From Acanthochlamys bracteata (taxonomy: Eukaryota > Streptophyta > Magnoliopsida > Pandanales > Velloziaceae), in assembly GCA_019914995.1 (NCBI GenBank), contig CM034140.1, positions 6,138,001 through 6,202,000 on the forward strand: a stretch of DNA of 64,000 bases, in the 5' to 3' direction. Of the stretch, positions 10,140-56,570 are shown one piece after another. The notes below the pieces were generated by a model. The model saw only the letters and a program-made list of their open reading frames with translations, searched no databases and had not been told where the DNA came from. The translations under genes were made by a program, and so were the position numbers. Position 1 is the stretch's first letter. Every line of letters begins with the position of its first letter.

Positions 10140-13100
10140 TTACTATTTATTAACAGCATTTAAAATCAAATCAATTTTTTTATAAATTTTAAGTTTGATT
10201 ATTTTATATATTTATTTTCATAACAAATTTTGATTTTATCAAATTTAAATTCAATTTTATTTTACATATTTTAATTCTTGTTATAAATTTATTTTTATAA
10301 TTTATTTTTTATAAAGTTCAACTTTTATAAAATTTAGTTTTATAAAACACTTCATTCATCATCAAACTAAAATAATTCAGTTATTTCTATTATTACTTCA
10401 AACTCTTTTTTATTTATACAAAAATATAATAAATTATTTCTAATTTATATTTTTTAAATATAAAAATTTTTCACTTCTAATAAAATTATTTGTAATAATT
10501 TATTTTTTATAACTACTTTTATATAATTCATTTTTAATTAAAAAAACACAAACTAAGAGTCAAGTTTGTTTAAAAGTTTTGATTTTTATGAGACAAAATA
10601 CTGCTACTGACTTTTCTGTTGAAGAGAAACTTAGGGCAGTGTGTTAATTGTTAGAATTAAATTTCTGTAAATAAATTTATAAATAAATAATTAAAGATTA
10701 TCTATAATAATATTTTGGTAGAAAAAATAATTCTGAATTACTATAATAATTCAATTTGTTTTTATTAATAACAATATTCTTCACAATACTAAATACATAC
10801 TGAAATTATAAAATTCAATAACATTTGTAAAATATGTCAAAATTTTTTATTAAAGAGTAGAAAAGTTAATGGTATTTCTGATGTCTAAATTTTTTATTAT
10901 AAATATAACACGTATTAAGAAAAAAATTTTTGAGATTAAAGAACGTTTAAAAGTTCGACACTCTTTTTATCTCATTTTTCGTCGTCTATATTAGAAAGAA
11001 GGTGAAAAGATGAGCGAGTCAAATACGTAAAATCCGTAACTTTGTCATAAAAATAAGGCTGTTTTTTCTAGTGCATATCAAAAATAACTTTTCAATTTTT
11101 TTTTATATTTTTTAATATATTTTATAAATATTTCAAATTTTATTTAAAAATTTAAATAGTATAAAAAAATTTTACATAATAAAATTTTTTTATTATATAT
11201 TTTTACTATTTTTTTTAAAAATAAAAAAAATAAATTTATTTTTAAAAAAATAAAAATATTTTTTATTTAAAAAAATTCTGTTTTATAAGTAATTCCAAAA
11301 CGCATCCTAAATATTGCAAATTAATTACCACCTAAATTCTCTATCTTAGAAGCCTACTAGATCTAGAAGCGTTTCAAAATATTTATAAAATAGAATTTTT
11401 TTAAAATAAAAATTATTTATTTTTTATTTTTAAAATAGAATAAAAATATGTAATAAAAAAATTTTATTATATAAAATTTTTTATATTTTTAATTTTTAAA
11501 TAAATAATATATATATTTATAAAATATTTATTAAAAAATATGAAATTCAAAAATTAAAAAATTAATTTTTTTAAATGGAATGCCAAACGAATCTTAAATA
11601 GCTGAGGCTTTTGGGGCCGAATGAAAATATTTTTCAAAATATTTTTTTTTATTTTAAAAAATAATTAAATATAATTAATAATAAAATTTTGTTATGTAAA
11701 TCTTTTTATATTTTAAAATTTTAATAAAAATACTAAAATTATAAAAAATTTATTAAAAATGTGAATAAACAAATTAAAAGTTAAACGAAGGTTTAACATC
11801 TTTCATAAATGTACAACGTTTATAGCTCTGTAGCGTGAATTTGGAGAATATTTGGCAATCTTATGATATTAATTTCTTTCTCGAAAATTTTTTTACTTTG
11901 TCAAATAAAACTTTTTGTTTTTATAATTTTTTTAAAAATATAAATAAATATATATTAATAAGTTTTATATATTATAATTTACTTTTGATAAAAAATTTAA
12001 ATTTATTTCTAAAATACTATTATTTTGAAAAAAATTATTTACTATAAATACTTTTAAATATTTCCGAACATCATCCGACGTAAAAAAATCTATTAGATAT
12101 AAATTCATAACACTTGCAAATATTTATCTAAAATAATTCTAAATAAAATTTCTCTTCACTTGCAGATATTTATATTTATATCTATTATTTATGTTTATAA
12201 AAATTTGTTTTACAGGATTTTATTCATTTTTTACAAATTTATTTAAGAAAATTTTTTGAAACAAGTAACACATACGAATAATCCTATTTTAGTTAGAAAA
12301 TTTCTATGTTTGGCTCAAAATTTTGTTATTTTTCTTTTTAAAAAAGATCTTATTTTAACTTGGAAGCTTTGTTCTTCTAATAAGTAAAGCAAAGGAAAAT
12401 AACTTGTTTTTGACTTTTCATTAAATAATTTAACCAAAGATAAGATAAAATTACTAAACACTATCAACTCAAACGCTATCTAATAATAACAAGCGAAATA
12501 AAACTTTTTCATATATTACAACATTCTTTGTATGAACAACGCCAACAGGTCCAACACCAATTGAAGGCAACAGAAACAAGAAGAAGAAGGAAGTAGAAGA
12601 CCAAGTTTTTCTATTTTTAAAAAATAAATTTACATATTTTAAATAATTTTTTATAATATTATATAAAATATTTTAAATTTAGAATTATATTTCATACAAT
12701 TCTAAAATTTTACCATTTTGATTGAAAAATTAATCTTATTCTTAAATATTTGTAAAATAAATTTTTTTAAAAAAATTATTTTCATAAGCATTACTAAACA
12801 TTCTCTTTCTCTGCTGCGTGCAATTGCATCATCCCTCAAAACTCTTTTCTTATTTTAATTTATTTTATATTTTAAAAAATTTTGTACAAAATTTTTTGAT
12901 TGTGTTATTCTTTCCAAAAGCATTGATTAATTGCTTCATGCTTTACATTAAACTGTGTTGACAACAGCGCAAAAAGAAAAGCTATGTCATTTATAGCAGC
13001 AGTTGGAACCAACAATAATTCATTATTACTTGCAGCAAATCATAATCAACATAATACTCTTATTATATTATATATTAATAATTTTAAGTTAATATTTATA

Positions 13101-19185: not shown

Positions 19186-20168
19186 GTTAAGAAAAGCAAA
19201 TAATTAGGATCCCTCGTGAATTCTACCAATAAGAGCCATAAGAGACTGGGCCACTAGGTCATGAACAGGTGCCTCTAACCAGGGACCGTCTTGCAACCAG
19301 CCGATGGTCGTCGTGCCCTGTGAAGCTTTGGGTTCAGTCACCTGTTATGGAGCAGCTTCCCTATGCATAACACAATGCCACACAGTATTATAACTATCAT
19401 TCATCAGAAATCACCTAGGAAGAAGGTTCATAATTGATGAAATATTAGTAGGTTCACAAGCAGCGTTTAATTCCATTTACTTCTAGTACAGTCTAATCCA
19501 ATCAATGGATTTTAGAACTATAGTATATACCTCATTTTAATCTTATTTTTATTCAATGTCTAACTAATCTACTTACTTTTAAATCCAATGGATCGATGAC
19601 TGCGCACATAAAGATAAAGCGGGCTACATGGATCACGAAAGAAAGTGGGAGAAAGAGACGCACTCGACGGAGAAAGTCACATGAAACAAGGTTGAAAATG
19701 AATGACAAATATGAAGCGACTCCGAATTAAAACAATATAAATAATTCATTCAAAGATTATTTTACCAAAAATAAGTTATATCTGGTGAAGAATAAATCAT
19801 CCATATTTTCTCTCACCCAAGTACTCTATAGTGCACGAAATACATGGATCATTCAAAATTCCAATCACTTGACTCGAAGTACTATATTATACATCAAGAG
19901 CTAGCCTTAGAGCTCAACTTGTTCTAAATCTTTGTTTGTCAAGCGAAAACTGACGAGTCACACTATTTTAATTTTCTCATTGGCCTATCAGCTACTGCTA
20001 TAATATGCGTACATCGCCTCCTGCGCAACCAAGAACTAACAATCAGAGAACAACTTACTCTGAATCGTCGCTCACATCTTACGGTAGCCTATGTGAGTCA
20101 TATTACTTTTAACATGCTCATTCACTTGTTAGCGAGAGCACTGCGAGCATCGGGCTCCCAGCTAAATT
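19186..20168. other. Intergenic DNA holding direct-repeat copy A1
   Basis: No gene found. 19491-19796 is a diverged direct repeat of 20991-21311. Shared words include ATCTACTTAC/TTTACTTAC, ATTAAAACAAT(A/G)TAAATAATTCATTCAAA and CTGGTGAAGA. The two copies bracket the miniature LTR element, about 1.5 kb apart. 19200-19480 is more GC-balanced and unassigned. Confidence 0.5.
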
Positions 20169-20250
20169 ATCGGTACTGATATCATTATTTGAAAGATACA
20201 ATATCGGAGGAGCTAACCAAAATAAGACACATAAAGTGACCGGCTTATAT

Positions 20251-20979
20251 TGTTGGACCTTTAAGCTAAGCTAAGCCCGTGATAGTAGCGTGTAGGGTTT
20301 AACGGACTCAAGTGAAAGATGGACTAGTTTGGTAGGTTATGACCGGATTAGTAGCATAGGAATCTGGAATCGATGATGCCTAAGTGAAAAACGGACTAGC
20401 TAATTTAGAGGTGAGCCAGCAACTCGCCTTGTGTTTGACAAAGTATACCCTAGTTTTGTGGGTATAATAATCCGCACCTTTTAATAGCCTCTATTAGCTG
20501 GGTACTGAAATGACTATGTACTTATAAATGGGATGCTACTCTCTAAAAAATTTGCAATGCTTTTGTGTGAGGATCCAATTCTATAATTAGTATCAGAATC
20601 CGATGGGGTAAAACCAACCGGCATGTTATAGGAAGAAGATTGTCGGACTTTTAAGTTGGTCTAAGTCCGAATTAGTAATGTGTAGGGTTTGGTGGATCCG
20701 ATTGAAAGACGAATTAGTTTGGTAAATTAGGATCGGATTAGTAGCGCAAAGACCTAGGTGTGTCCAAGTGAAAAACAGGCTAGCTAACTTAAAGATAGGC
20801 CAACAACTGGCCTTAGGTTGGGTCAAATAGATCATAGTTTTGTGAGCTTAATAGCTCGTACTCTTTAATAGTCCCACATTGGTGAAGTGCTGGAATATAT
20901 ATGTGTATATAAGTAGAGGATACTAACTCCTAATAGATTGACCAATCTTTTTAGTATGGGATCCGATCTTATATATACA
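20251..20979 (+). mobile_element. Miniature LTR retrotransposon (SMART/TRIM type)
   Basis: LTR 1 begins TGTTGGACCTTTAAGC at 20251 and LTR 2 begins TGTCGGACTTTTAAGT at 20641. The two run in parallel for about 335 bases (shared words: GTGTAGGGTTT, GTGAAAAAC, GACTAGCTAA or its variants, TATATAAG-like region, GGATCC near the end). Between them are only about 55 bases. These include a primer-binding-like TAGTATCAGAATCC just after LTR 1 and a purine tract GGAAGAAGA just before LTR 2. There is no coding capacity. TTATAT occurs before LTR 1 and near the end of LTR 2 and may be the target duplication. The LTRs differ much more than the two inverted arms do, so this insertion predates the inversion. 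Confidence 0.8.
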
Positions 20980-21895
20980 ATAGAAAGGCCATTCTAATTC
21001 AAAAAATTTTAATAGATTTTGGACTTCTCTAATATATAAACCTCTTTTTCTTATCCTATTTTTATTTAATATATGACTAATTTACTTACTCTAGAACCCA
21101 ACATATTGATGGCTGTGCGGAGAACGATAAAATAGGCTATAGAGATCATGAATGGAAGCGGAAGAAAGAGCCGCGTTCACGGGAGAAAGTCGCATGAAAC
21201 TGGATTGAAAAATAAGCGAAAAATATGAAGTGACTTCCAAATTAAAACAATGTAAATAATTCATTCAAAATTAATTTTTAACACAAATAAGTGATTTCTG
21301 GTGAAGAGAATATATTATATATGACTATTTTAACTAATTGTATGCATCTTCCACCATGTTTTTTTTTTTTTTTTTTTGGACAAGTTGAATTAGGACCGGC
21401 TTATTATCACGACAAGGTACTATGTTGATATGATTCAATATTTTTTTATTTTAAATATGAAACAACTATACATAATAATGCTATTTATACTTATGATCGG
21501 TAAGCTAAACATATTAACTTAATGGATTATTGCTTTAAGTCTATACACCCATGTAGAGGACTAGATTGCTTAAAATAAAATAAAAATTTTTAAAACAGAA
21601 ATTATTTTAGAAGTTTCAAAAAATGAGTTTATTTTATTTTATTAAAAGTTTATTTTATTATATATATATAGGGATGGGATGTAGGCACATCCCATCCCAT
21701 AAGGTAGATTATTTACTGTAGGCACATGCTGTTGATTGAACGGCTGTGATGTAGGCACTAGTTGATGAACGGCTGTGATGCGCTCCATCGTTTTTAACCT
21801 AGGCACATCGACTCGACTCATTCTTATCTCAATTGTTTTTTTTTTCTCTCCTTTGCGCAGCGCAGCGCAGCGGCGTCTTCCGCTCTACCTCCGAC

Positions 21896-22352
21896 CGCGA
21901 AATCGAGTCATCCGCGCTCGATGCCGGCTCGATTTCGCAACAGAGAGTCTCTGTTTCGGCTTTTGATCAAGATTCCCGCTCGTTTTCGTCTCCGGTTTCA
22001 ACTCCGGTTCGATTTCGCGATTCCGGCCGTAATTGAGCTCTCCGCGGCTCGATTTCGCGATTCCGGTCTCCGATTCGGCCGTTGAGAATGATTCCGGCCT
22101 GATTTCGTCTCCGGCTTCCCCTCCACTCCGGCTCGATTTCGCAATTCCAACCGAAATCGAGCTCTCCGCGGCTCGATTTTGCAATTCCGGTCTCTGGTTC
22201 GGCTATTGATCAAGATTTCCCCCTCGATTTCGTCTCCGGCTTCCACTCCGGCTCGATTTCGCGACTCCGGCCGAAATCGAGCCTTCCGCGGCTCGATTTC
22301 GCGATTCCGGATTCCGGTTCGGCCTTTGAGATTGATTCCGGCACGATCTCGT
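21896..22352. repeat. GC-rich tandem repeats in MULE left TIR
   Basis: About three copies of a roughly 120-bp unit. Each contains two GGCTCGATTTCGC-type words spaced about 40 bases apart (starts near 21925, 22005, 22044, 22129, 22167, 22248 and 22289), with CTCCGGCTTC and GAAATCGAGC between. Very CpG-rich in AT-rich surroundings. Small ORFs here are read-through of the repeat, not genes. Confidence 0.8.
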
Positions 22353-22353
22353 C

Positions 22354-22470
22354 TCCGGCTGGCACATTATTTACTGTTGGCATATGCTGTTGATTGAACG
22401 GCTGTGATGCAGGTACTAGTTGACGAACGGCTGTGATGCGCTCCATCGTTTTTAACCTAGGCACATGACA
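22354..22470. repeat. Extra internal copy of MULE terminal sequence
   Basis: Starting GGCACATTATTTACTGT, this repeats the sequence found about 30 bases inside the left terminus (21700-21810), including GCTGTTGATTGAACGGC and CGCTCCATCGTTTTTAACC. It lacks the outermost palindromic 30 bases. The right arm has no counterpart at the corresponding place. Confidence 0.75.
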
Positions 22471-22769
22471 GCGAGCCGAAGCATTCTTAAAATTTTTTTG
22501 AGAATGTGCTCAATTGAAGCATTACTCTCAAAAGTTTCCAATCTCTACTCCACAATGGAGTGTTGTGCTCCGCGTTTCGGCTTGTGATCAACATTCTGGC
22601 TCGGCTTCAGCTTCGTATCCTGCATGATTTATTTTAATTTTCACGACTTCGTTTTAACTTTCATTTTTGCTGAATTGTTTTACAGTTCATTGATTCTGTT
22701 TTGTCACTGATTTTTCCACTGATTTTTTTTGGGTGTTTGGATTTATTTTATAGGTATTGGTTTTGATTT

Positions 22770-24256
22770 ATGTGGTATTGGTTTTTATTATGTGGTATTG
22801 GTTTTGAATTATGTATTAGTTTTATTGTGTGTTGGATAGTTTGGCCGGAAGGATTTGTTGAATGCATGGTTGCCGAAACTGGAAAGGTATGTTGGTTTCC
22901 TGCATCACAGCCGTTGGTAAATATTGATGAGGTAATAATGGGGCTGCAAAATTGCTCTCTGTTTGCTTATTTTGGAAAAATGCTGGAAATGTAACTCTCT
23001 GTTGTGAAATGTTACCTTATGCTGAAAATACTGATGAGGCAATGATGAGACTGCAAAATTATTCTGTTCTTTCTTCCTCAATCGGCACTACTCTTTAATT
23101 ACATTGCAAGGCAGTAAGGATGGTGGCAAATAGCAGCCGCAACCACTGCAGCTGTGATTAGAGAAAGCAGTGTAGAGAGGTAGAGAGCAATGGATGGTTT
23201 GAAACACAGTCCTTTGAATCTCAGTGATTGATTAAAATCATTGTCTCTGAGCCTCCTTCCTCTTCCTCTCTTTAAATTGTTTTGATGTTGATGGATGTAT
23301 CTCTTGAAATATAAGTTTCTGTAGTAAATTAAAATGTTGGCTATGTAACTCCGTATTGTGAAATGTAAGTATTGTGAAATGTAAGTACGTGTGGAAATGT
23401 AAATTCTCTATTATAAAATGTAATCAGATCTGGAAATATAAGTGTGCAGTAATCAGATACTGGAAATGCAACTCTTGTGAAATGTCACCAAATCTGAAGA
23501 TGTAACACTTTTCTGAAATGTAAGATGTATGAAATGAATTTCATCTATTTATTTTGTGTTTGTTGTCAATGGAAATTATTTGTTGTAAAATATTATATGA
23601 TAGTTATTGTATGAAGAAAACGTTCTAAGTATTATGATATAAACTAATAAATTATATAGTAAAAACTATTGTACAGTTATAGGTAATTATCACATATCAA
23701 AGCCAGTCATCATTTAATTAAAATTATTATATAGTACTAATTACACAACAAATATAGAGCAATTAACAACGTCAAACAGAGAGCAAAAGTCAGGCAGCAG
23801 TATTTTTACTCAAACATAGAACAAAAAGGCAGCAAATAAAGAGCATTTTTACTCAAACAGAGCAAAAAGGCAGAGCACAGAGAGCAATTTTCCAGCAAAC
23901 AGAGCTGGTTTACATCAAATAGAGAGCAAGAAGCAACAAATATAGAGCAATTTTACATCAAACAAAGAGCAATAAGTAATAAATATAGAGCAATTTTATA
24001 GCAAACAGAGCACTTTTACATCAAATAGAGAGCAAGAAGCAACAAATATAGAGAAATTTTACATCAAACAGAGAGCAAGAAGGCAGTAAACAGAGAGTAT
24101 GTTTGAGCTAAATTCATAAAGAGTAAGCTTGAATAGATAGCAAACTTAAAATAATTACAATTGCATCTCAAACAGAGAGCAAGGTTGAACAAAATACATA
24201 TTTATATTTGAACAAAAGCTATAAAGTTTATACAATTTTGTCTCAAAAATCATCAC
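22770..24256. repeat. MULE subterminal repeat region
   Basis: There are four TATGTGGTATTGGTTTT-like units near 22745-22830. Repeated GAAATGTAA words follow between 22985 and 23525. Then 23750-24190 has about ten degenerate units built on CAAACAGAGAGCAA and AATATAGAGCAATTTTACAT. No convincing coding region. The second block lies just 3' of the transposase stop and may be its 3' UTR. Confidence 0.6.
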
Positions 24257-26845
24257 CTATTGATATGTCATCATCACTGTTGTTGAGATATTTGTATTTA
24301 TGGATTCATTATCATCACTAAGATTGGTTTCACCAATAACTGTCTTCTTCTTTCTGTTTGGATTTTCAGGACAATTTCGCTTATCGTGTTTAACGCCAAT
24401 CTTATTACAGCAAGCACATCTTCTCCATATTTTCGATTTACTTTTTGCAAGTGACTTCTCCAAACCGCCTTTTATTCTACTACTACCAACAGAAGCTTTT
24501 CCTTCTCTTTTTCTTCCCTTGGTTTGTGAAATATTTGGATTTAAAAGTAGAACTTGAGATGCATTAACACCAACTTGTGTGCTCTCCGTGGCAGTACATG
24601 AATCATCTTTTGAGCTCTCATTAGTCTTCCTTATTTCATTAATCTGCACTGACAACTTTTGTAATGTTTGTAACATTAATTGAAAGGTTTCGTCTACTTC
24701 ACCAGCTTCATAAGCCAATTGAGTGGAAATCTTCAAAAGTTGAGTAGTTCTTAGTAGGTCAGAATGCTCATGGCCTTGTATTGCTCCACCATCATACTCG
24801 ACTCTATATTTATTAGCCCGTTTCATCCACCTCTTAAGAATGAAGTTAACAGGTATGTCTATGTCACGGGACTGAAAAATTTTCATCAGATGTCTACAAG
24901 GAATGCCAACAAAGTCAAAAAGTTTGCATTTACAATAGCCTTATTTGGTGGCATGGTTGAATTTTGCCTTCCACGCACGATCATCACCAAGCACTCGCGA
25001 CTCATAAATGTAAGTCGTGCAGCCATCACTATCTTTTTCATCATCATATAGAACATACTCTGCTTGAGCTTTTTCAAACTCATTTCTGAATCTGTCATAC
25101 ACATTTCTAGTGTATATGTTTGCTGCGTTTTTCAAAAGATAAGCATGACTACCTACAATGCGATCAGAGTGTTCGCTAATATAATCCTCTTTCTTTTCCT
25201 TTTCCATAATTTTAGCCAAACACTTGTCGTTCTTCACCACAAACTCGCGAAGAGTTGTTGTAGGGTGAAAAAAGTTATTGTAAACAGAGTTCATACCTTC
25301 AGAGCGTCCTTTAGTATTCATACTAGCATAAAAAGTGTCAAAATGATAAGCTGGAGCCCATTTCTTTCGGATTTCGTAGATCCCTTGAAGCCATTCGTTC
25401 TCTTTCAAGTTGTATTTACATATCAATTCATTCCATCTCATCTCAAAAGCACAAGGAGTGTAAGTGTCTCTAATGCACATTCGGATATCTTTTTTAAATT
25501 GTGACTTTTTGAAATAAATATGTAGAAGCTTTTCAGGAAATTTCTTCATCACATGCCACAAGCAAAATCGATGTCGTGTATTCGAAAATACCTTCTCAAC
25601 TGCTACAGTCATAGCTTTGTCTTGATCAGTAATGAGAGAAGATGGAGCACGTCCTCCCATAGCTGCAAGCCAAGTTTCAAAAAGCCAATGAAAAGACTCT
25701 TTTGTTTCATCCAAAAGTAATGCACAACCAAATGAAATTGACTGCATATGGTGATTCACTCCAGTAAATGGGGCAAACGGCATTTCATACACGTTTGTAC
25801 GATATGTTGTGTCGAAGAACATCACATCCCCAAAATACTGAAATTGTAAACGAGATCGACCATTCACCCAGAAAAAATTTATTGCTCTTGCTTCACTGTC
25901 CATCTGTATTGCATAAAACAAATTTGGATCTTCTATACTCTTTTTCTTAAAGAAATCAAGCGTTGCAGTTGCATCCCCTTGGACAGGTTTTTTATACTCT
26001 TTAGATGGTCCCAAATGATTCCAACAGTCTCTATCGTCAAAACCAATCTGTGGTCCATCAAGAATATCTGCAATTTTATTTACAGGTATGCCTTCATCGC
26101 GAAATGAATCAACTAGCATCTTCGCTGCAGCAGGCATATGCTTACAAACAGTCATGCGCATCCGTTTCGCTAGACTAAAAAAGTTATGATTATGCTCACC
26201 AATATATTGAATCACTTTCCACAATCCAGTTGGTTGTTTTGTTATTTTCATTCTTGCAAGACATCCGCATTTCACTGTGGATGTACTTCTCGTCTGGTTA
26301 ATAACATTACTAAGTAAGCTCTCATTCGGTTGTTTTTTGGCATGATCTCTGTACACACCAAATCGTTGACAGGTCATCAAACAAGAAGTGATTTCATCGG
26401 AGCCTTTTCTTTTTTCGGTACTTCGAATAACCGCACTAAATCCGGTTGCTCTTCCATAATATATATAAAATTCCTTTGCACCTTCAAGAGTTGGAAAAAT
26501 CATATCTAAACATGGTGACTTTTCCTTCTCTGCTGTTATATTCTGAGTTGATGCAGCAGAGCACTCGGCCTCATTTGTTTCGAAATCTATAAAAAATAAA
26601 TTGCGTTAAAAAATTGAAAAGTTATAACATAACATACTAGAGATGTATTTTTTTAAAATATTTTCTGTTGTTAATCACTTTCCATTTTATGTTCCACTTT
26701 TAAAATAACAAAAATTAAGTTAACGCCTGCAAAGTTTTTTCTTTTGATCTATTATGCTTGTTTAAAATTTAGTAATATAATTTTCAATAAAATAAAATTT
26801 AGCAAGATATTTATCAGTTAAGACACCTTCAGTGTTCTGAGCCAT
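24257..26845 (-). pseudogene. FAR1/MURA-type MULE transposase, one in-frame stop
   Basis: Model: exon 1 is 26845-26827 (MAQNTE), the intron 26826-26587 ends TTTTTTATAG, and exon 2 is 26586-24257. The joined frame is 783 codons and stays open except for one TAA at 24943-24941 (codon 555). Domains in order: FAR1 DNA-binding zinc-finger-like region (about 43-140, ending GEHNHNF); MULE transposase domain with candidate acids Asp 265 (FFDTTY), Asp 327 (ITDQD) and Glu 436 (RSEGMN); the HRFCLWHV helix; SWIM finger CKCKLFDFVGIPCRH just after the stop (about 557-571); and a C-terminal CCHC-like knuckle (CACCNKIGVKHDKRNC). The product would catalyse MULE transposition in the nucleus. The stop removes the SWIM finger and C-terminus unless it is read through. 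Conservation of frame on both sides suggests a recent nonsense change, an assembly or base error, or a very young pseudogene. FAR1-like domesticated genes share these domains, but the position inside matching TIRs argues for a transposon gene. Confidence 0.9.
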
Positions 26846-27146
26846 GGAGAAGAGGAGACGAGCTTAAAGAGAACGCTGAATATTTGCTTTATATCACAGG
26901 GAGAATAAGAAAAACAGACAAAATAAGTTTGGTATTGCTGGAGATTTAAAGCAAAACAGAGCAAGAATGAAGAAGAAGAAGAAATAAAATGGCGCAGAAA
27001 AAGAAAAACAGAGCATGAAAACAGAGCATGAAACGCGGGAGAAAAATATAAGCGCGGGAGAAAGTTGGTGGCGACTATAGCAAGCATTTAAGTTGATGTC
27101 AGTGTGGTTAAATGCTGGATGAATTTGTGATTAAATACAACTTCAA

Positions 27147-27345
27147 TCGGTGATGTTATCTCGTATTAAATTAATTTTATTAATTATATTTGCTGTCAAA
27201 TTTAGGTTAATATTTATTAAGATTTTCAATCGCTGTTTTTAATCATCGGTGATGTTATCTCGTATTAACTTAGTTTTATTAATTGTAATCGCTGTCAAAT
27301 TTAGGTTAACATTTACTAAAATTTTCAATCGCTGAGATTCATCAT
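27147..27345. repeat. Two-copy tandem repeat upstream of the transposase gene
   Basis: Two copies of a unit of about 97 bases, each beginning ATCGGTGATGTTATCTCGTA and ending near TTTTCAATCGCTG (27147-27243 and 27244-27340). They lie about 300 bp upstream of the transposase ATG on the minus strand and may be part of its promoter or binding sites for the transposase. Function inferred from position only. Confidence 0.7.
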
Positions 27346-28020
27346 CCGCTAAAATTTAAAAAAAAATTATTTCAATGTATTTGAGGAAGATTTTCAACGA
27401 CAACTTGATATTAATAACGTATTTGAAGTAAAATTTGATCGTTAATATTTCACTCAACAATAGAAAGAATTTCAATGATTTCAGTATAGATAAAGAAAGA
27501 TTACAACATCAGTTTACATTTTCAGCAAAGAGGAAGATTTACAATAGATAGGAAGAGAAGAAGAATTACATCGTCTGCTATATTCAAGCTACATTTCCAG
27601 CATTGAATTACATTTCACAACAGAACGTTACACATCCAGTTTCTGAGTTATATATCACAACAGTAAGTTACACTTCCAATAGTCATCAACAATAAAACAA
27701 CAACAGAGGAAGACAGAAAGGAGGAGGCTCAGAGGCACATGATTTACTGTAGACAATTAGATTCAAATATACTACCCATATCAGGACTGATCGAAACCAT
27801 CCAACGTTCTCTCCCTCTCTGCACTGCCTTCTCTAATCGCAGCTGCAGTGGTTGCCATCTGACTTTGTCAGTGGCCATCCTTACTGTCTTGCTGTGATAA
27901 AAAGGCAATGCAGATGCGAAAGAAAATTTTACTTCTAACCTCATCATTGCCTCATTTGTATATCCCAACATTCTAGTTTTGGCAACCATCCATTCAACAT
28001 AACATTTTCCGCCCAAACTA

Positions 28021-28195
28021 ATCAATACACCATAAATAAAAAATCAATACACCGTAAATCAAATCCAATACATCGTGAAACAAATTCAACACACCGTGAA
28101 ACAATCCAATACAACAGAAAATAAATTCAATACAACAGAAAACAAATCTAATACACCGCAAACACAAATTCAATACATCATAAAATAAATAAGTG
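28021..28195. repeat. About eight 22-bp tandem units in MULE right subterminal region
   Basis: Units built on CAATACACCGTGAAACAAAT, most 20-23 bases long. This is the inverted counterpart of the shorter TATGTGGTATTGGTTTT array in the left arm. The 61-codon minus-strand ORF across it is only the translated repeat. Confidence 0.7.
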
Positions 28196-28216
28196 AAAAT
28201 CAAAATAAATAATCGA

Positions 28217-30237
28217 AAATAAAAACAAATCGGCTCCGGAGACGAGATCGTGCCGAAATCAATCTCAACGGCCGAACCGGAATCCGGAATCGCGAAATCG
28301 AGCCGCGGAAGGCTCGATTTCGGCCGGAGTCGTGAAATCGAGCCAGAGTGGAAGCCGGAGACGAAATCGAGGGGGAAATCTTGATCAATAGCCGAACCGG
28401 AGACCGGAATTGCAAAATCGAGCCGCGGAGAGCTCGATTTCGGCCGGAATTGTGAAATCGAGCCGGAGTGGAGGGGAAGCCGGAGAAGAAATTAGGCCGG
28501 AATCATTCTCAACGGTCGAATCGGAGACCGAAATCGCGAAATCGAGCCGCGGAGAGCTCGATTACGGCCGGAATCGCGAAATCGAACCAGAGTTGAAACC
28601 GGAGACGAAAACGAGCGGGAATCTTGATCAAAAGCCGAAACAGAGACTCTCTGTTGCGAAATCGAGCCGGCATTGAGCGCGGAGGACTCGATATCGCGGT
28701 CGGAGGTAGAACGGAAGACGCCGCTGCGCTGCGCAAAGGAGAGAAAAAAAAACGATTGAGATAAGAATGAGTCGAGTCGATGTGCCTAGGTTAAAAACGA
28801 TGGAGCGCATCACAGCTGTTCGTCAACTAGTGCCTGCATCACAGCCGTTCAATCAACAGCATGTGCCTACAGTAAATAATGTGCCTTATGGGATAGGATG
28901 TGCCTACATCCCATCCCTATATATATATAATAAAATAAACTTTTAATAAAATAAAATAAACTCATTTTTTGAAACTTCTAAAATAATTTCTCTTTTAAAA
29001 ATTTTTATTTTATTTTAAGCAATCTAGTCCTCTACATGGGTGTATAGACTTAAAGCAATAATCCACTAAGTTAATATGTTTAGCTTACCGATCATAAGTA
29101 TAAATAGCATTATTATGTATAGTTGTTTCATATTTAAAATAAAAAAATATTGAATCATACCAACATAGTACCTTGTCGTGATAATAAGCCGGTCCTAATT
29201 CAACTTGTCAAAAAAAAAAAAAAAAAGAACATGGTGGAAGATGCATACAATTAGTTAAAATAGTCATATATAATATATTCTCTTCACCAGAATCACTTAT
29301 TTGTGTTAAAAATTAATTTTGAATGAATTATTTACATTGTTTTAATTTGGAAGTCACTTCATATTTTTCGCTTATTTTTCAATCCAGTTTCATGCGACTT
29401 TCTCCCGTGAACGCGGCTCTTTCTTCCGCTTCCATTCGTGATCTCTATAGCCTAAAAAGATTGGTCAATCTATTAGGAGTTAGTATCCTCTACTTATATA
29501 CACATACACATTCCAGCACTTCACCAATGTGGGACTATTAAAGAGTACGAGCTATTAAGCTCACAAAACTATGATCTATTTGACCCAACCTAAGGCCAGT
29601 TGTTGGCCTATCTTTAAGTTAGCTAGCCTGTTTTTCACTTGGACACACCTAGGTTTTTGCGCTACTAATCCGATCCTAATTTACCAAACTAATTCGTCTT
29701 TCAATCGGACCCACCAAGCCCTACACATTACTAATTCGAACTTAGACCAACTTAAAAGTCCAACAATCTTCTTCCTATAACATGCCGGTTGGTTTTACCC
29801 CATCGGATTCTGATACTAATTATAAAATTGGATCCTCACACAAAAGCATTGCAAATTTTTTAGAGAGTAGCATCCCATTTATAAGTACATAGTCATTTCA
29901 GTACCCAGCTAATAGAGGCTATTAAAAGGTGCGGATTATTATACCCACAAAATTAGGGTATATTTTGTCAAACACAAGGCGAGTTGCTGGCTCACCTCTA
30001 AATTAGCTAGTCCGTTTTTCACTTAGGCATCATCGATTCCAGATTCCTACGCTACTAATCCGGTCATAACCTACCAAACTAGTCCATCTTTCACTTGAGT
30101 CCGTTAAACCCTACACGCTACTATCACGGGCTTAGCTTAGCTTGAAGGTCCAACAATATAAGCTGGTCACTTTATGTGTCTTATTTTGGTTAGCTCCTCC
30201 GATGTTGTATCTTTCAAATAATGATATCAGTACCGAT
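28217..30237. repeat. Right arm of the large inverted repeat
   Basis: Reverse complement of 20169-22352. It contains in order the GC-rich MULE repeats (28225-28700), the MULE right end (28917), the A/T tract, a shortened copy of direct repeat A2 (about 29280-29445) and the miniature LTR element in minus orientation (29453-30155). It ends at TACCGAT near 30237. About 170 bases present in the left arm (around 20955-21130) are missing at the CTATAGCCTAAAAAGATTGG junction near 29453. Confidence 0.9.
29453..30155 (-). mobile_element. Inverted, 3'-truncated copy of the miniature LTR element
   Basis: Minus-strand counterpart of 20251-20979. LTR 1 starts at 30155, the primer-binding-like word is at about 29806-29819 (GGATTCTGATACTA on plus), and LTR 2 starts near 29766. 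The end of LTR 2 is lost in the deletion at 29453. It arrived with the arm duplication, not by separate insertion. Confidence 0.8.
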
Positions 30238-30239
30238 TG

Positions 30240-30398
30240 ATGTAAGAATGAGTCGAGTCGATGTGCCTAGGTTAAAAACGATGGAGCGCATCACAGCCGT
30301 TCGTCAACTAGTGCCTGCATCACAGCCGTTCAATCAACAGCATGTGCCTACAGTAAATAATGTGCCTTATGGGATGGGATGTGCCTACATCCCATCCC
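30240..30398. repeat. Third MULE terminal segment at the outer border
   Basis: From TAAGAATGAGTCGAGTCG through the ATCCCATCCC terminus at 30398, this matches 28763-28917 in the same orientation and directly abuts the outer end of the right inverted arm. It is followed by a (TA)n tract, as are the ends at 21671 and 28917. No counterpart is seen at the outer left border. Confidence 0.85.
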
Positions 30399-30777
30399 AT
30401 ATATATATATATATATATATATGAGAAGTATATGAGCATTCTATTTTTTAGGGGTACTTCAGTGCACTCCACGGCGACTTTTGGCCGAAAGATCTCCAAA
30501 TTTAATTTTTACAGTTGGATATGAAGAATTATGAAACGATAATACACTGACAAAAATTTAGTTTAATTGGAACACGAATCGATTTCTATTAATCACTTGA
30601 TCAAGATGATATAAATAAAAGAAAACTTTAATATATATATATATATATTATTTTTTTTTGTTATATTGATTAAGTGACCGAATGGATGTCGATTCGTACT
30701 CCGATTGACCTAAAATTTTTCAGCATATTATCAAGTAGTTCTTCATATCTAATGTAAAGATTAGATTTGGAGGTTTT

Positions 30778-33158
30778 TGTCAAGACCCAAAACTAGATCC
30801 TGACCGGCACTGGATTAAACCGAGTCTAGACAAGGCCCAAACTCGGCCAAATCTAGTAAGCCTAACCCAAAAATATCATAAACGGTTCACCAAATATCTC
30901 CAAAAAAAATAAATTTTCGACAAAACCTTCCCTATAATTTCAAGTGAAAACTTGTACCACAATAAACAAAATTATATAAATACTAAAACCAGCAAAATCA
31001 TCTATGGGCTACCGGTAGCCACCAACACCTATTACAATCCAAAACAAATACCATCGCAATACTAAATATAATAAAGTACAAAAAAAGTCAATGTCTTTCG
31101 AGGATTACAGAGCTAACTATATGCCAAAAGATTTATAAAATACCCTTCGTACGCTCTCGGTCCAGCAATATCGAATCTAATCAGCGCCCGCTAGCTTCTG
31201 ACCTATATAGGGGAGGCCAAAGAAAAAAAAAGAGGGTGAGCCCAGTCTCAGTGAGGTAAAACAGCAGAATGCCCAATTTAGATATTGCATTAAGTAGGCA
31301 TTATAGTACTATCTACATGAAGAAGATGCAATGATAAATCAGATCAGATTCTACTAAGTCCTGAATCGTCCCATACCGATTCAGTTTTTAGCAGAGATAT
31401 ACGATAATATGAAATAAGATTATGCAGCACTCTTAAGGATATAATATATATACATATACATAGTGCACCCATGCAAGCAAGCATATGTAATGATGTATGC
31501 GAATGCATCAAGTATAACAGCCATACAAGATAGGCGATCGAGTGAGATCACATCTCCAACTCACATCACGCTATCGGGTATATCATACAAGCATACATAC
31601 GTAATACTTTTATATATATCAAACCACAAACAAAGTCGGTGCCTAGTATGCCCTAGGATCCACCGGCAAGCAATATCATTACAGCTCGGTGCCCAGTATG
31701 TCTTGGGATCCACCGGTAATCCATATCTTATAACTCGATGCCCAGTATATCCTAAGACCCATCAGCTATCCATATATTTCGGTGCCCAGTATCTCCTGGG
31801 ACCCACCGTATCAATATCTCATTCAAGCATACATAATATGCATTGTCCCATACTAATGCAGTCCCTAACAAGTAGATGCAACATAATAGGTTTTCACTCA
31901 ATGAACATGCTATGCCCAATGCCTTCAATGCTATCGTGATTATACTTATGCATATATGAAAGGAAAATATTGACATATATATAGCATATTCTCGTAATTA
32001 TGCCACATAGTCTACAATATGCAAACGTATTAGTACTAAATATAAACATGAAATAAATCTAAGCATGTACAGGCATATGTAGTATAAAGGATAAACCATA
32101 ATATATAACGACAATGGCAAAGTAGGCCAGAATTTCCAAAACAAATGCTATCTGTGCCGAAAGCCTAACGTTAATTTAGGAAAAAAAGATGGCACGGTAA
32201 TCCTCACCTATAGTCCAAGCAAGTACTTGTATCAACCGTAAACTCTAAGTCGCACCATCAGAACTCAAGTCACTCGTACCGCTTAACGTGCATACGGGCA
32301 TATTTAATAACAAGCACGCTAACGAAAGCTAAATCAAAACTTGTAATAAATACCTAACTAAATTTGGGTCTAAGGTTTAATAGCATACGGCGAACCATTC
32401 TAAGATTTCATCCATTTAACTCATTCAATTTTCTATCCACTACACAATAAATATTAAGCTAACAATCTAAGAAGCTTACCGACGATGCAAGACGTTCGAA
32501 TGCTACACGACTTGAATCGGCAACAACTCACGTATTTTCAATCCAACGATTTTCTAAAACGAAACGAATTAATAATTCATCTAACAACAATCTCAAATAC
32601 GCGATGCAAGTATTTTTAACTCACCTAACCGAGTCACCGGAAAGTTCGTCGGAAAAGTTCGTCAGATTCCGGCGAGTTAGGGTTCCGGCCAAGTGTGTTC
32701 AAAGCAGTAAAAATGACCAACACTGCTAGTAGAATCCAATGGAATAGACGACAAGCTTCAATTTTGTCGCAGGCGGCCGGAATTGACGAAATAACGTCCG
32801 GCGGCGAACTCACGCAATATCAAGCGCCGGAGCTGAAAATCAACACAATTAAATGAGGAAAAAAACTTAGCAAGTTGAGGGGAATGTTTCTAGCTACTCA
32901 CCATCGCCGGATCGCCTACGAAACGGCCGAACAAAATTCTAGTTTTTTCTATCCTTCGCGGTGGAGCTCGCCAGAGCCGTAATAATGATGCCCGAAGGGA
33001 GAAGATGATGAACGGAGTTGTTGGAGAGGATGACCGTCAACGGAGAAGGTCGATTTGACGCCGGAGAGGAGCTGGAAGGAAGAGGCAGTGGCGGTGTCGG
33101 GCAGGTAGAGAGGGGGAAGAAGAAGAAGGAAAAGAAATTAAAAAAATTAGACATTACA
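30778..33158 (-). mobile_element. Probable solo LTR of a Ty3/Gypsy element
   Basis: About 2.4 kb bounded by TG (TGTCAAGACCC, 30778) and CA (GACATTACA, 33158). It holds no polyprotein. Seen in minus orientation it begins TGTAATGTC and ends GGGTCTTGACA. It contains a 48-bp tandem array (31637-31812) and a GCCCAGTCTCAGTGAGGTAAA block near 31239, which I associate with plant Gypsy LTRs. A diverged relative lies at 1365-2105. No internal region, PBS or partner LTR is in the window. The two flanking pentamers (GTTTT, TGTTA) do not match, so the exact ends are uncertain. Confidence 0.6.
31637..31812. repeat. Four-copy tandem repeat inside the LTR
   Basis: Units start near 31637, 31687, 31736 and 31780, each with CGGTGCCCAGTAT followed by a CTGGGATCCACC-like word. 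Within each unit GGTG...CCCAG and CTGGG...CACC can pair as an imperfect hairpin. Confidence 0.85.
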
Positions 33159-33539: not shown

Positions 33540-33785
33540 GGGGGCATTTGAGATTGCTTATGAAATAGAGCTTTTCTGAAAAGGAGGGTATTTTTGTCCT
33601 TTTTAAAAAACGAGCTCTATTTTTTTACTTTCAAAAAAATAATAAAATATGTAATAAAAAGATCTCACTATGTAGAATTTTTTATATTTTTTAAATTCTT
33701 AAATAAAATTTCTAAATACTTATAAAATATATATTGAAAAATATAAAATAGAGAAAAATTGAAAAATAGCATTCCAAACGCACTC
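33540..33785. mobile_element. MITE of the F2 family, TSD TAA
   Basis: The left end is GGGGGCATTTGAGATTGC and the right end GCATTCCAAACGCACTC. TAA flanks both ends (33537-33539 and 33786-33788). It lies 230 bp upstream of the EMC6 start codon, hence in or near its promoter. Confidence 0.75.
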
Positions 33786-33853
33786 TAAAATGGGTAGAAC
33801 ACTGTAGCCAAAATTATATAAAAAAGGAGAAATAGAAACGCTTTGTAGGCTAC

Positions 33854-33870
33854 TGGGCTGAAGCAGCCCA
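33854..33870 (+). promoter_or_regulatory. Paired site II words upstream of EMC6
   Basis: TGGGCT at 33854-33859 and its complement AGCCCA at 33865-33870 form an inverted pair about 150 bp before the EMC6 ATG. Such words are typical of constitutively expressed plant housekeeping promoters and of TCP binding. Function inferred. Confidence 0.5.
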
Positions 33871-34017
33871 ATAAGGCAGTGTTGGGTTTCCTCCCTAAGC
33901 CTAGAAGTAAGAAGTAAACAGAGTTCAGACGACTATCTAGTACTTGATCATAATTGATTTCTAAATAAACTTCTCTGATTTTCTATAGAAAATTTTCTTT
34001 GCAACTGTGAGCGATCG

Positions 34018-37000
34018 ATGGAGGAGATGAAATCCGGCAAGGACGATCTTCCCATCTTCAACGCCGATAATCTTCAGACAAATCTCAAATCAATCTACTA
34101 CAGGTTCCTCTCTCTCTCTCTCTCGATCGACCTTGTTGATTTAGAAGTTTGTAGATTCTGTGGGAGTTGGGTTTGCTGTCCATATGATCATCGTGGCAAT
34201 TAGTTACTTTCATCTTGAAGATGGTCTTTTAACCTTGTCTTGCAAAATTAAGGAGATAGGATTGTTCTTTGAATTTTGCTAGGATTCTACCGATTATCAA
34301 GATTTCCATTGCTCCTGTTGTGATATAGGGAATTGATTTATAGCATTTCAGTGCACTAGACAACAATTTCAAAAGTTAGAGTCGGAAATAGTATGCTGTA
34401 AGTGATTAGTTGAAGGAATGTGCGATTATGTCAGAAATTTTCAATGATAATTTTTGAAGACGTTGAAGAAGATATTGTTGAAATTAAGGACATGCATTGA
34501 AAAGCTTGTAAGCTGATTAAGTGTCAAACATCTCCCTCCAGAAACTTAAATTAATAACAATGAGGACATGGGTTAGCAACTTAGATAGTAAACGGTTTTC
34601 CTATCAGATAATATTGGCACCTCCTATCCACATGGATTGACTAGTGAAATCAACAGAAGCGCAACATTTTGGATTAAGCTTACCAATAGGTACAGTTCTT
34701 ATGGGTAAGAGATTTTGATGTTTCTCTGCCACATAAATCAAGCACTTGTTGTTTTCTCTGCACCAACTTTTCAATGCTATGCAGAAGTAAAACAAAATTT
34801 TTCTTTCACTACCTTGCACCACACATCTAGCACTGCACAATAGGACACCTGCTCATTATCATATAATCCACTCGTTTAAATTCAACCTTTACCCCAAGAT
34901 GTAACCTTGCTCTGATAAACTTGTCAAATTTTCATAAAATGCAAATGTTGGTAGAAAATGACATTGGGGACGTTTGGGAGTGCTTTTGAAATGGAGCTTT
35001 TCTGAAATGGCGAGTATTTTGTCTTTTTTGAAAAACGAGCTCTATTTTTTTTACCTCCAAAAAAATAATAAAAATGTGCAATAAAAAGATCTTACTACGT
35101 AGATTTTTTCTATACTTTCTAAAATTTTAAATAAATTTTCTATATACTTATAAAATATGTATTGAAAAACGTAAAATGGAAAATTAGAAAGCTACTTTTC
35201 TGGTAAGCTAAGCCAAATGAGCCCATTGTCTGAGAATGGAATTGGACACATTTTCTTCAAATATAAATACAATAAGCTCAACTTCGATTAGGAAAATATA
35301 GTTTATGATTCTTGAATTCAAGTTCTTGGAAACATGCTACACTTCCACAATTTGAAAACTTTCTAGACTTTTGAGTTGCTAAGCATCTTAAGTTTAATAA
35401 TAGATCTTTGAACTTTGTGAATTCAGTTAACAAGATGTATGAATATGGATAATTGACGATATGTCTTTATGGGATTGTATCAAAAGATCACTTGAGAGGA
35501 TGAAATGTAGGTTAGAGGAGAGAAGAGCTAATAGATGCATTTTGTAATGGACACAAGGACCATATGATAGAAACCTAATTCTTATTGCTTGCCTTCCACT
35601 TGTCACCAATGTCGGGAACTCTACAACTTCTTGCTCCTAACCGTGATTGGAGTTTTAGATGAATCATACCTCCTACTCTCCTGCATGTTTGACAAATGTG
35701 CAAGCAATATGTATAAAAAATTTGTTTAAATTAGGCATGATGTGTCATCCTACGGCGAAGAGCATCTTAGGTGCTATTTCTTATTTTATGTATAGATAAG
35801 AAGAAATAGAAGAACTTTAAGGGTAGTAATAAATACTACCTTCATGAGTGATAAAATTACACCTATTTGATCCTAAAGAAGAGTACAATGAACGGGTGTG
35901 GTCCTTTCATGGTGTAAAGATACAAATTAAACAGAAGAAATTGATGGGAAAGTAATGGTTAGTAGATAGCTTTTCGTACTCCTAGCAAACTTTAAAGCTG
36001 TAGTACAATAATGTTCACAAAGATGTTTAACCAAGTTTGTGCTCTTGTTAATAAAAGGACTTTTCCTTATAATGTGATTTGGGCTGCCAATGCTTATATC
36101 ATTGTAGTGTTAGTGCTTTTATATTTGCTTTCATGGAGCTATTGACGAGTTCACTGCAAGGTGATCCCCATATCACTAAATTATTGTACTCCTACTCTGT
36201 AGCATACAAAGGATAACCGAAGTTTAGTTTACATCTTTCTTCAAATGACAAGGTAGATAGCTTCTATATTGACACTTCGCAGTTTTCACAAATGCAATTA
36301 TTAATTTTCTAACTACCAACTATTGAATTCCTAACTGATGTCCGAATCCTTGTATATTTAATGGCACATGACATTGGAACCTATTTGATCACCATAGGCC
36401 ATAAGCCCCTGTTCTAGATCCATTAGTTGGTTGTTATGTTTGTTGAAAAAGTAATTGTTTAATAATTTATCAAAGCAATTATGTTCAACTTATTTTGGAA
36501 GAATTGATTTGTTAAATACTTAGACATCAAGTGTAATTATATTTGTTTAGCCTAAAGAGTGACTGGCTAGGGTGGTGTAAGTCGAACTTCAAAATTATTT
36601 AGGCTCCATTCAGTATTGAGTTTGGACTTTGGAGAATTGCTTTTGTAAAAGAGCTTTTAAAAATATTTTGGAGAATCTAGTTTCCTCTTGTTCTTCATAA
36701 CACTTCTTTACAAATGTGTTTCTCACGGTGAGGCAACAACAGTTGTTTCATACTCAATATTAAACGAAGCTTTAGTTTGTTTTGAAGTAAATGTTTGGAT
36801 TAATTTGTATCTAGAGTCTAGACATAATAATTAGTATTTATGGGTTTAAAACTTGAACCCTATCTTGTATAGTAGTTTTCCTCTACCCTCTGTGTTGCTT
36901 GAGAAAACCAGTATAATAAGCCATTGAGAAATATGCTCACCCTACGAAAGAGAATTGGCAATAATGGTCGACAAATAACACTTTGGGAGGGACAAGCCGT

Positions 37001-54389: not shown

Positions 54390-56570
54390 TTAACATCAAA
54401 TTAAATTTACAAAGATGATATTTTTTTCCGAACTAAATATCGCATTAGCAAGAGCACCATCCAACAAGCATAAACCAAGTGATTTCATTTCCAGATTATA
54501 AGTAAAAAAACTTACCAGATAGGTTAATACAGCATACAAACAAGCAAAAGGCATCTCATTACTGATGCATGTTATCAAAACATAAAACTATGCAATCAAT
54601 CGAAATGGATACATGATTCTATTAAAGAGTTAATTCCCCAACATCTAGCCACCACAAGACCACCACAAACCCAAAAGAGACACGCAAGCTGTCCTTGTGT
54701 TCCGGTGCTCCCGGTTTCTCCAGACGGTGCTCTAAAACACCCTCGTGTGTTCTTCTTGAGTTATTAAAAAATTATTATAAATTAGTTTATTAGAATTAAA
54801 TTTAGTTTTTGTTTTTTTTAAAAATGAGTGAATTGAAAGTGATTTTTTTATTATTTTGCATAGTTTAAAGTTAATCGAAACTAATTTTTAGTAGAAAGAG
54901 TGAGTTTTTTGGGTAAAAAAAACACTATTAAGAGTCAAAGCCATACGAAGAAGAGCAGTTTGCTCTAAAATTATTCCTAGACGGCCCTCGGAAGAATTCA
55001 TATTATTTGAAGCCAATAATGAACTTTAGGAATATTTCGAAGTATTTATTAAAAAATAAATTTTTAAAAGAAAATTATTTTAAAAAGTTTTAAAAAATAA
55101 ATTTTATTTTTTTATTTCAAAAATATTATTAAAAATAATTAGTAAAAAATTTTATGATGTAAAATTTTTAAAAATTTTATTAAAAATATAAAATATAAAA
55201 CTTTTTTAAAAAAAATTTTCCTCGAACATGTCCAAAAAATTTGTACTGCAGCCGACCGACTTGGGAGGTGAACTCGCTTTTTCTACCAGAAATTGACTAG
55301 AATTCAACTTTTTTCACTATGCTTCAAGATGGACGGAACTTATTTTTCAATTTATTTCTAAAATAATTTACTTACATGAAACTCATTTTTCTGAAGCTAA
55401 ACACATCCTTAGATTGTGATGTGCTTCGCCTCGATCCATACATATTTAAAGTTCCCTAAGAATTTGTTGAAGGCATTGTAGTGAGGTATAGCCATATAGT
55501 ACCATTACATGGTTAACATCTATGTATTTAAAGTTTTCTAAAATTTTCAGAAGTATTTGAAACTAACCCTAATTAATATTTATCAATTTGATTTTGATTT
55601 AATTTATTTAGCAATTAGTTTGATGATTTTTGGACAAAAGGAACTTTTTGAGTGAATTCTCAAGTTGTCACTACCGTACACGTAAGCAAATGTCCATTAT
55701 CGCGGACCCACATTTGCAGAAAAGCGCCTTTTAATAATCGTTGCAAAGACGGAACTTATTTTATTGCATTTTCGAACAGAGCTGATTTGCTGTTGATTAA
55801 GACCATATTTCAAATTGTTATTTACGGATCGTTGCGAGTAATTAAAATAATAAATTCTTTTTTAAAAAATTATTTCAAGTTTTTCTCAAGTCATTCAAAA
55901 CGTCCCCCGTTAACTCAAAATTTCAAGTTCTTTTTATGTTTACCTTAAGATAACTTACTTTTTAAAACTGAATTTATCTTAAATAATTTATAAAATTAAA
56001 ACTTAAGAATATAATTTTTAATAAAAAATCATTTAAATATTTTTATTTATTTTGTTTAAAAGTAAATTAAAAAAAAAGTGAGTCGGAAGAAATAATAAGC
56101 GAGTATTTATAGGGACGTTTGGGATTGAGTTTATCAAATTCTCTATTTTAATTTTTTATTTTATATTTTTTAATATATATTTTATAAAAATTTAAAAAAT
56201 TTATTTAAAATTTTAAAAATTTATATAATAGAATTTTTATTATATATTTTTACTATTTTTTTAAAATAAAAATATAAAACTTGTTAAAAAAATAAAAATA
56301 TTTTTTATTTTAAAAAATTTTACTTTATAAATATTTCTAAATGACTCCGTAAATGTAGTGGATAATGACCCAACCGCAATTATATGAAACATAAAAATTA
56401 TTTGGTTGACTGGCTTTGCAAATTTTCTTATCTTTGCCCGCACCATCCTATAGATAAACCTTTTCCATCCCTCGACTTCTTCATTTTTCATTCCACTACC
56501 CTAACAACGACTCTCTTCCAACTCTGCTAAAAAAAATTAAAAAAAGAAAAGAAAAAAATCTCAACAAATC

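Follow-up and report, generated by a model that had tools for sequence, protein, structure and literature searches.

A 64,000-bp stretch of Acanthochlamys bracteata contig CM034140.1 (C15:6138001-6202000 in the contig numbering used below), hereafter the window, carries a Mutator-like element (MULE) whose left flank is present a second time, inverted, beyond its right end. The structure was read from one assembly, and genome searches covered its 195.5 Mb in 557 contigs. The coordinates of the features are given in Table 1. By its sequence, 21671-28917 is a MULE with a long terminal inverted repeat (TIR) at each end, and these limits, set in an earlier sequence-only reading of the locus, hold because related copies share the tip. 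A domain search recognized MULE (PF10551, E 1.5e-30) and FAR1 (PF03101) domains in the transposase; the stop at 24941-24943 (minus strand) is the only one in its otherwise open frame. Copies on C1, C12, C13 and C17 have the same kind of long TIRs at both ends, with varying lengths, and the family tips are identical in kind to the tip of the window MULE except where degraded, as in one tip on C13.

Table 1. Features of the MULE locus in window coordinates. ORF, open reading frame; LTR, long terminal repeat.
Feature	Position	Strand	Basis or remark
F, left MULE flank, putative donor of the inverted copy	20169..21670	+	retains the 178 bp; local relative 19520-19791 unbroken there
Old miniature LTR-like repeat inside F	20249..20970	+	right limit estimated; LTR-like pair 20249-20460 and 20639-20844, 73% alike
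178 bp in F, missing from F'	20955..21132	+	skip with 3-bp microhomology TAG
MULE body with two long TIRs	21671..28917		nearest sister copy C1:8833985-8841268, 96% identical internally
Left TIR (L), ~690 bp: 165-bp tip, poly-T tract, GC-rich tandem repeats	21671..22360	+	alignment with family copies
TIR2, extra tip-like TIR copy without the ~32-36 outermost bp	22361..22469	+	present at left end of several family copies
Transposase frame, FAR1 and MULE domains	24257..26503	-	ORFs 24941-26503 and 24257-24886, one in-frame stop
Right TIR (R), inner right terminus	28236..28917	-	alignment with family copies
F', inverted copy of F, 1,320 bp	28918..30237	-	window self-comparison, alignment
J3, F' joined to TIR interior	30234..30242		CGAT at 30234-30237
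WS, third MULE terminus, outermost 161 bp of a right end	30238..30398	-	genome matches, TIR alignment
TA repeat at outer right end	30399..30422	+	phase fits 9-bp (or 11-bp) target duplication with left end

Self-comparison of the window gave the order F-L-M-R-F'-r-G along the locus, in which M is the interior of the MULE, r the short third terminus and G the right flank. Two inverted matches were found, 20169-20954 with 29452-30237 (98.2%) and 21133-22358 with 28236-29454 (96.9%), the second of which spans flank and TIR. Outside the MULE, the paired arms are 20169-20954/29452-30237, with 14 substitutions in 783 positions, and 21133-21670/28918-29454, with 6 in 537 and a 1-bp indel. The resulting 20 substitutions in 1,320 aligned bases, 18 of them transitions, correspond to 98.5% identity. 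Chance is excluded as the source of the arms because the longest inverted match in the window after removal of 19501-31000 measured 237 bp at 77%. The inverted duplication of the flank, claimed beforehand for 20169-21670 and 28918-30237, is real and confirmed. The limits then proposed, 20169 and 30237, are precise to within a 4-bp microhomology, but the inverted repeat between them is not a simple one, as F' lacks 178 bp of F.

Genome searches with the queries 20169-20700 (40 of 317 candidates scored) and 20954-21670 (40 of 98 candidates scored) gave no close copy of F besides F', 20701-20953 lying outside the queries; the next-best matches among those listed were partial, with 75-77% identity. 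Two independent insertions of a common repeat, for which a genome search had been suggested, were rejected because both queries match closely at F and F' alone among the candidates scored. The miniature LTR-like repeat inside F has partial relatives on many contigs, the best of those listed at about 75%. Its two repeats are about 73% alike compared to 98.5% between the arms, in agreement with the previous view that the duplication is the younger event.

At the joint in F' where the 178 bp are missing, TAG is common to both sides. The local relative of F at 19520-19791 (78%) is continuous across this point, so that F is probably the unaltered arm. With the deletion confined to F', the role of F as donor is supported but not proved. 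To the left of F, 19000-20168 matches dispersed repeats and one local relative only, and no MULE tip-like match was present left of 20169 in the window self-comparison.

The DNA beyond 30237 is no plain flank but starts with a third MULE terminus, WS. This terminus has the orientation of a right end, with a complete tip followed by the TA repeat and then the ordinary right flank G. Its identity is 99% with the inner right tip (WR), 97% with the left tip (WL) and 97-98% with the C1 copy, and all other genome matches listed reached at most 94% (40 of 80 candidates scored). The tips of R and WS lie 1,481 bp apart, and 1,320 bp separate WS from R. At J3, the CGAT that ends F' is shared with the right TIR at 28753-28756; past it, identity to the TIR runs for three more bases, followed by two base changes at 30241-30242. 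As F' stops at the CGAT where WS starts and WS is the tip of the right TIR, the outer 161 bp of the right end would have been split off, with F' now between the two parts. The identification of WS as the original right tip is supported but not proved.

J3 thus lies 161 bp inside a TIR, and no intact terminus is present at the far joint of the inverted copy. This joint bears on aberrant transposition between sister chromatids, in which the left end of one chromatid and the right end of the other insert together nearby, and which was among the causes first considered. In a study of sister chromatid and reversed-ends transposition of maize Ac/Ds, the sister chromatid type can yield flanking inverted duplications (PMC3744419). 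The Ac events join termini to target sites, however, and transposase action would be expected to give every joint an intact terminus, whereas F' adjoins the inside of a truncated TIR; the inner R also shows the less usual TA phase described below. This origin is disfavoured and very improbable. A composite element bounded at 20169 and 30237, another early proposal, is unsupported because there is no MULE end at 20169 and no second copy was found.

The same joint and the differences between the arms also speak to the quality of the assembly. A pair of inverted TIRs would be the kind of repeat able to mislead an assembly graph, and could have turned the assembler back into another allele of F. 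The arms differ, however, by 20 substitutions and the 178-bp deletion, the 4-bp match at J3 would be too short for an assembly overlap, and no other close F match was found in the 557 contigs. The palindromic assembly error that had called for exclusion is therefore quite unlikely, given 1.5% divergence, a deletion and the outer junction.

The MULE family copies are mostly inserted in TA repeats, and MULEs targeting TA microsatellites are known (PMC4486113). Short elements of about 200-430 bp with related tips (GGGATAGGATATAGGCACAT) occur genome-wide, e.g., at C2:6867504-6867911 (L048) and C5:3444674-3445080 (L050); 10 of the 11 examined sit in TA repeats, and L048, outside such a repeat, has an unambiguous 9-bp duplication. 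For MULEs a target duplication of 9-11 bp is expected; at the window MULE, the flanks beside L and WS agree over 9 bp and over 11 bp inside the TA repeat target. In an alternating TA repeat, a duplication of odd length puts the same base last on the left and first on the right, a phase unaffected by slippage in TA units. The left end reads odd together with WS and even together with the inner R, as required of an inverted copy. The phase was compared in 23 rows, two of them the window's own and 21 others. Four were dropped before counting, three with a degraded terminus (C13a, C20, and C19a) and one with tips seemingly from different elements (C13b), while C12, in which one tip is internally deleted with the outer eight bases nearly intact, was retained. 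Odd phase was observed in 15 of the 17 retained insertions (5/6 MULEs and 10/11 short elements), which lends moderate weight to WS and G as the original right side.

The phase also argues against F and F' having formed a palindrome centred on the TA repeat before the MULE inserted at its centre. Such an order would agree with the TA preference of the family and of the TA-targeting MULEs cited above, but insertion would usually lead to odd phase, and that at the inner R is even. The position of WS at the outer edge of F', with a tip closest to the same element among the matches listed, would stay unexplained. A spacer-free palindrome of 1.5 kb would moreover be unstable, and this sequence of events is scarcely credible.

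The arrangement is likely to have arisen by gap-filling or template-switch repair guided by the TIRs, a switch made plausible by the homology that long inverted TIRs provide. The MULE would have inserted in the TA repeat between F and G. Later, a break would have occurred in the right TIR at 161 bp from the tip, next to a poly-A tract and a tandem array rich in GC, and the inner broken end would have invaded, in cis or on the sister chromatid, the left TIR, where its sequence is repeated in inverted orientation. Extended outward, it would have used the left tip as template, then the TA site and 1.5 kb of the flank beyond, with one 178-bp skip at the 3-bp microhomology, until the new strand was released and joined, at the 4-bp microhomology, to the 161-bp tip waiting on the G side. 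In a variant, the switch would have occurred in the self-complementary TA repeat and not within the TIR, and the data fit both alike. We infer the break and the invasion, as well as the order in which the steps took place. Among the causes listed in the sequence-only reading, whose interpretation is partly supported overall, the best fit is fold-back repair following breakage at one end. The outcome is one unit with three termini, 21671-30398, with intact outer tips and 1.3 kb of enclosed flank. Because one 10-kb stretch contains the donor, the copy, both microhomology joints and the leftover tip, the steps are directly readable.

The same inverted order would result from a head-to-head fusion of sister chromatids at the right TIR, of the breakage-fusion-bridge type, if the bridge broke in F' and rejoined to the leftover tip and G; microhomology at the outer joint would be allowed as well. 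This course requires a dicentric, a second break just 1.3 kb out and the capture of exactly the complementary tip, and it leaves the 178-bp skip unexplained. Cycles of sister fusion lose distal sequence (PMC10766186), whereas G remains beyond the duplication here, and the fusion is judged improbable.

The TIR pair and the arms were compared for age after removal of the slipped tract (21835-21865) and of the final 14 bases of F. Raw divergence was 25/657 in the TIRs versus 20/1306 in the arms (p = 0.002). The TIRs are rich in CG, with differences at 11/161 CG sites compared to 4/62 in the arms, and changes other than CG/CHG transitions amounted to 8/657 and 15/1306, respectively (p = 1.0). The raw difference, which would make the arms younger than the TIRs, vanishes outside CG/CHG transitions, although transversions still lean to older TIRs; the arms and TIRs may be of one age. 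At a substitution rate of 7e-9 per site per year, taken from another species, the 1.5% divergence of the arms would correspond, as a rough guess, to about one million years.

Several observations run counter to repair by copying and to a single age. Transversions were more common in the TIRs (5/657) than in the arms (2/1306, p = 0.046), the 25 TIR differences compare with 18.0 expected from arm rates, and the 165-bp tips WL and WR differ at 7 sites, a rate above that of the arms. The TIR pair is possibly somewhat older, as its differences and transversions exceed the arm rates. In the near star-like tree of WL, WR and the two C1 ends, no site (pattern 0011) unites WL and WR against both C1 ends, though copying could leave shared derived bases. 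Two CG sites group WR with C1R, and at one of these, 21771, WS is without the base of WR and C1R. In the phase comparison, all four dropped rows are even, and with them 15/21 are odd and the test is weaker. The lack of derived bases shared by WL and WR makes the TA repeat or the extreme tip the more likely place of the switch, few sites being informative on a copying of the inner right tip from the left one.

The locus is a variant of known Pack-TIR and multi-TIR events, and is apparently new. Gap filling is an established idea for TIR elements, and animal Pack-TIRs formed by gap filling or FoSTeST likewise show a break inside a TIR element, a repair switch to nearby DNA and a single-copy filler between element pieces (Tan et al. 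2021, PMC8277862). Unlike in those Pack-TIRs, the filler here is an inverted copy of the flank at the element's other end, the switch was plausibly guided by inverted TIRs, and the element is a plant MULE. Multi-TIR MULEs of the solo-TIR types share one extra tandem terminus at one end (Ferguson and Jiang 2012, PMC3310237), where extra TIRs are possibly gained by acquisition through a mechanism called unclear. In contrast to them, 1.3 kb of identifiable flank with an adjoining donor separates the termini here, and the tips, 1,481 bp apart, exceed the published spacing of tandem TIRs (<600 bp). None of the titles and abstract openings listed in literature searches described a MULE that carries its opposite flank in inverted copy, which is weak evidence of novelty as the literature searched lacked most subscription journals.

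Similarities to other rearrangements were also observed. Inverted repeats and microhomology joints give comparable inverted insertions at human disease loci, and DUP-TRP/INV-DUP structures share with the window the inverted-repeat junction, the microhomology joints and the inverted copy between them (PMC4352052 and PMC10766186). They differ from the present event, which is of kilobase scale within one transposon and in which F is duplicated, not triplicated, with two close copies found genome-wide. Mu killer of maize is likewise a MULE-derived inverted duplication (PMC3440606), but inverts part of the transposase gene, whereas here the arms are flank and TIRs and the spacer is the full element; a hairpin RNA has been proposed for it, and the same source questions whether its main transcripts form one. 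Adjacent insertions of Pack-CACTA elements also leave host DNA between termini after terminal losses (PMC13317346), but what is captured is the DNA between the two insertions, and no inverted flank copy results.

The unit 21671-30398 has a Pack-MULE-like form, with the non-transposon DNA F' between R and WS and a known donor, F; part of F' is the old repeat. No second copy of F' as a sign of movement as a unit was found in the genome searches with F queries, and one-third of Pack-MULEs are multi-copy, hence such movement is not required (PMC8277862). That the unit is a newborn Pack-MULE beside its donor, and that Pack-MULEs and multi-TIR MULEs generally arise when a broken TIR is repaired by copying through the other TIR into the flank, as long inverted TIRs would permit, is a tentative and rather doubtful proposal; if true, a single repair step yields both captured host DNA and an extra terminus. 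The acquisition of host DNA by plant MULEs has been called "yet to be understood" (PMC3310237), gap filling in plants worth exploring (PMC8277862), and a 2026 review leaves room for an undiscovered mechanism (PMC13317346); the locus may reveal how host DNA enters such elements. The predicted signature, which can be searched for, is a pair of same-orientation tandem MULE tips around an inverted copy of the opposite flank.

The flanks of six other two-ended family copies (C1, C12, C13:3785500-3792816, C17, C19:6607966-6615485, and C20:3079518-3086318) were compared, and none of the six had an inverted flank duplication within about 1.5 kb per side. Flank matches were obtained for C12 alone, four of 20-29 bp ending in a TA-rich stretch at its right end. 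The search for recurrence covered the first listed of 208 tip places, and 36 of 618 candidates were scored for family copies. One other tandem tip pair, at C19:2831565 and 2833686, was rejected as a recurrence, being part of a cluster of palindromic short elements. In this region, C19:2831300-2834300 (L047), nested palindromic short elements with TIR-like tips are clustered.

A second, tip-truncated copy of the TIR2 type was observed at C1:8840482-8840586, C12:6172834-6172944, C13:3786375-3786485 and C17:3031594-3031702. The asymmetric form with three TIRs thereby seems, from these copies, to have amplified in the MULE family, in contrast to the "death on birth" suggested for solo-TIR elements (PMC3310237).

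Further repeats were present in the window. Part of the right flank, 30778-31400, belongs to a repeat family with dozens of copies of 82-88% identity listed genome-wide. The stretches 11080-11780, 33540-35190 and 55025-56353 are related repeats, mostly 75-85% alike, and occur in both orientations.

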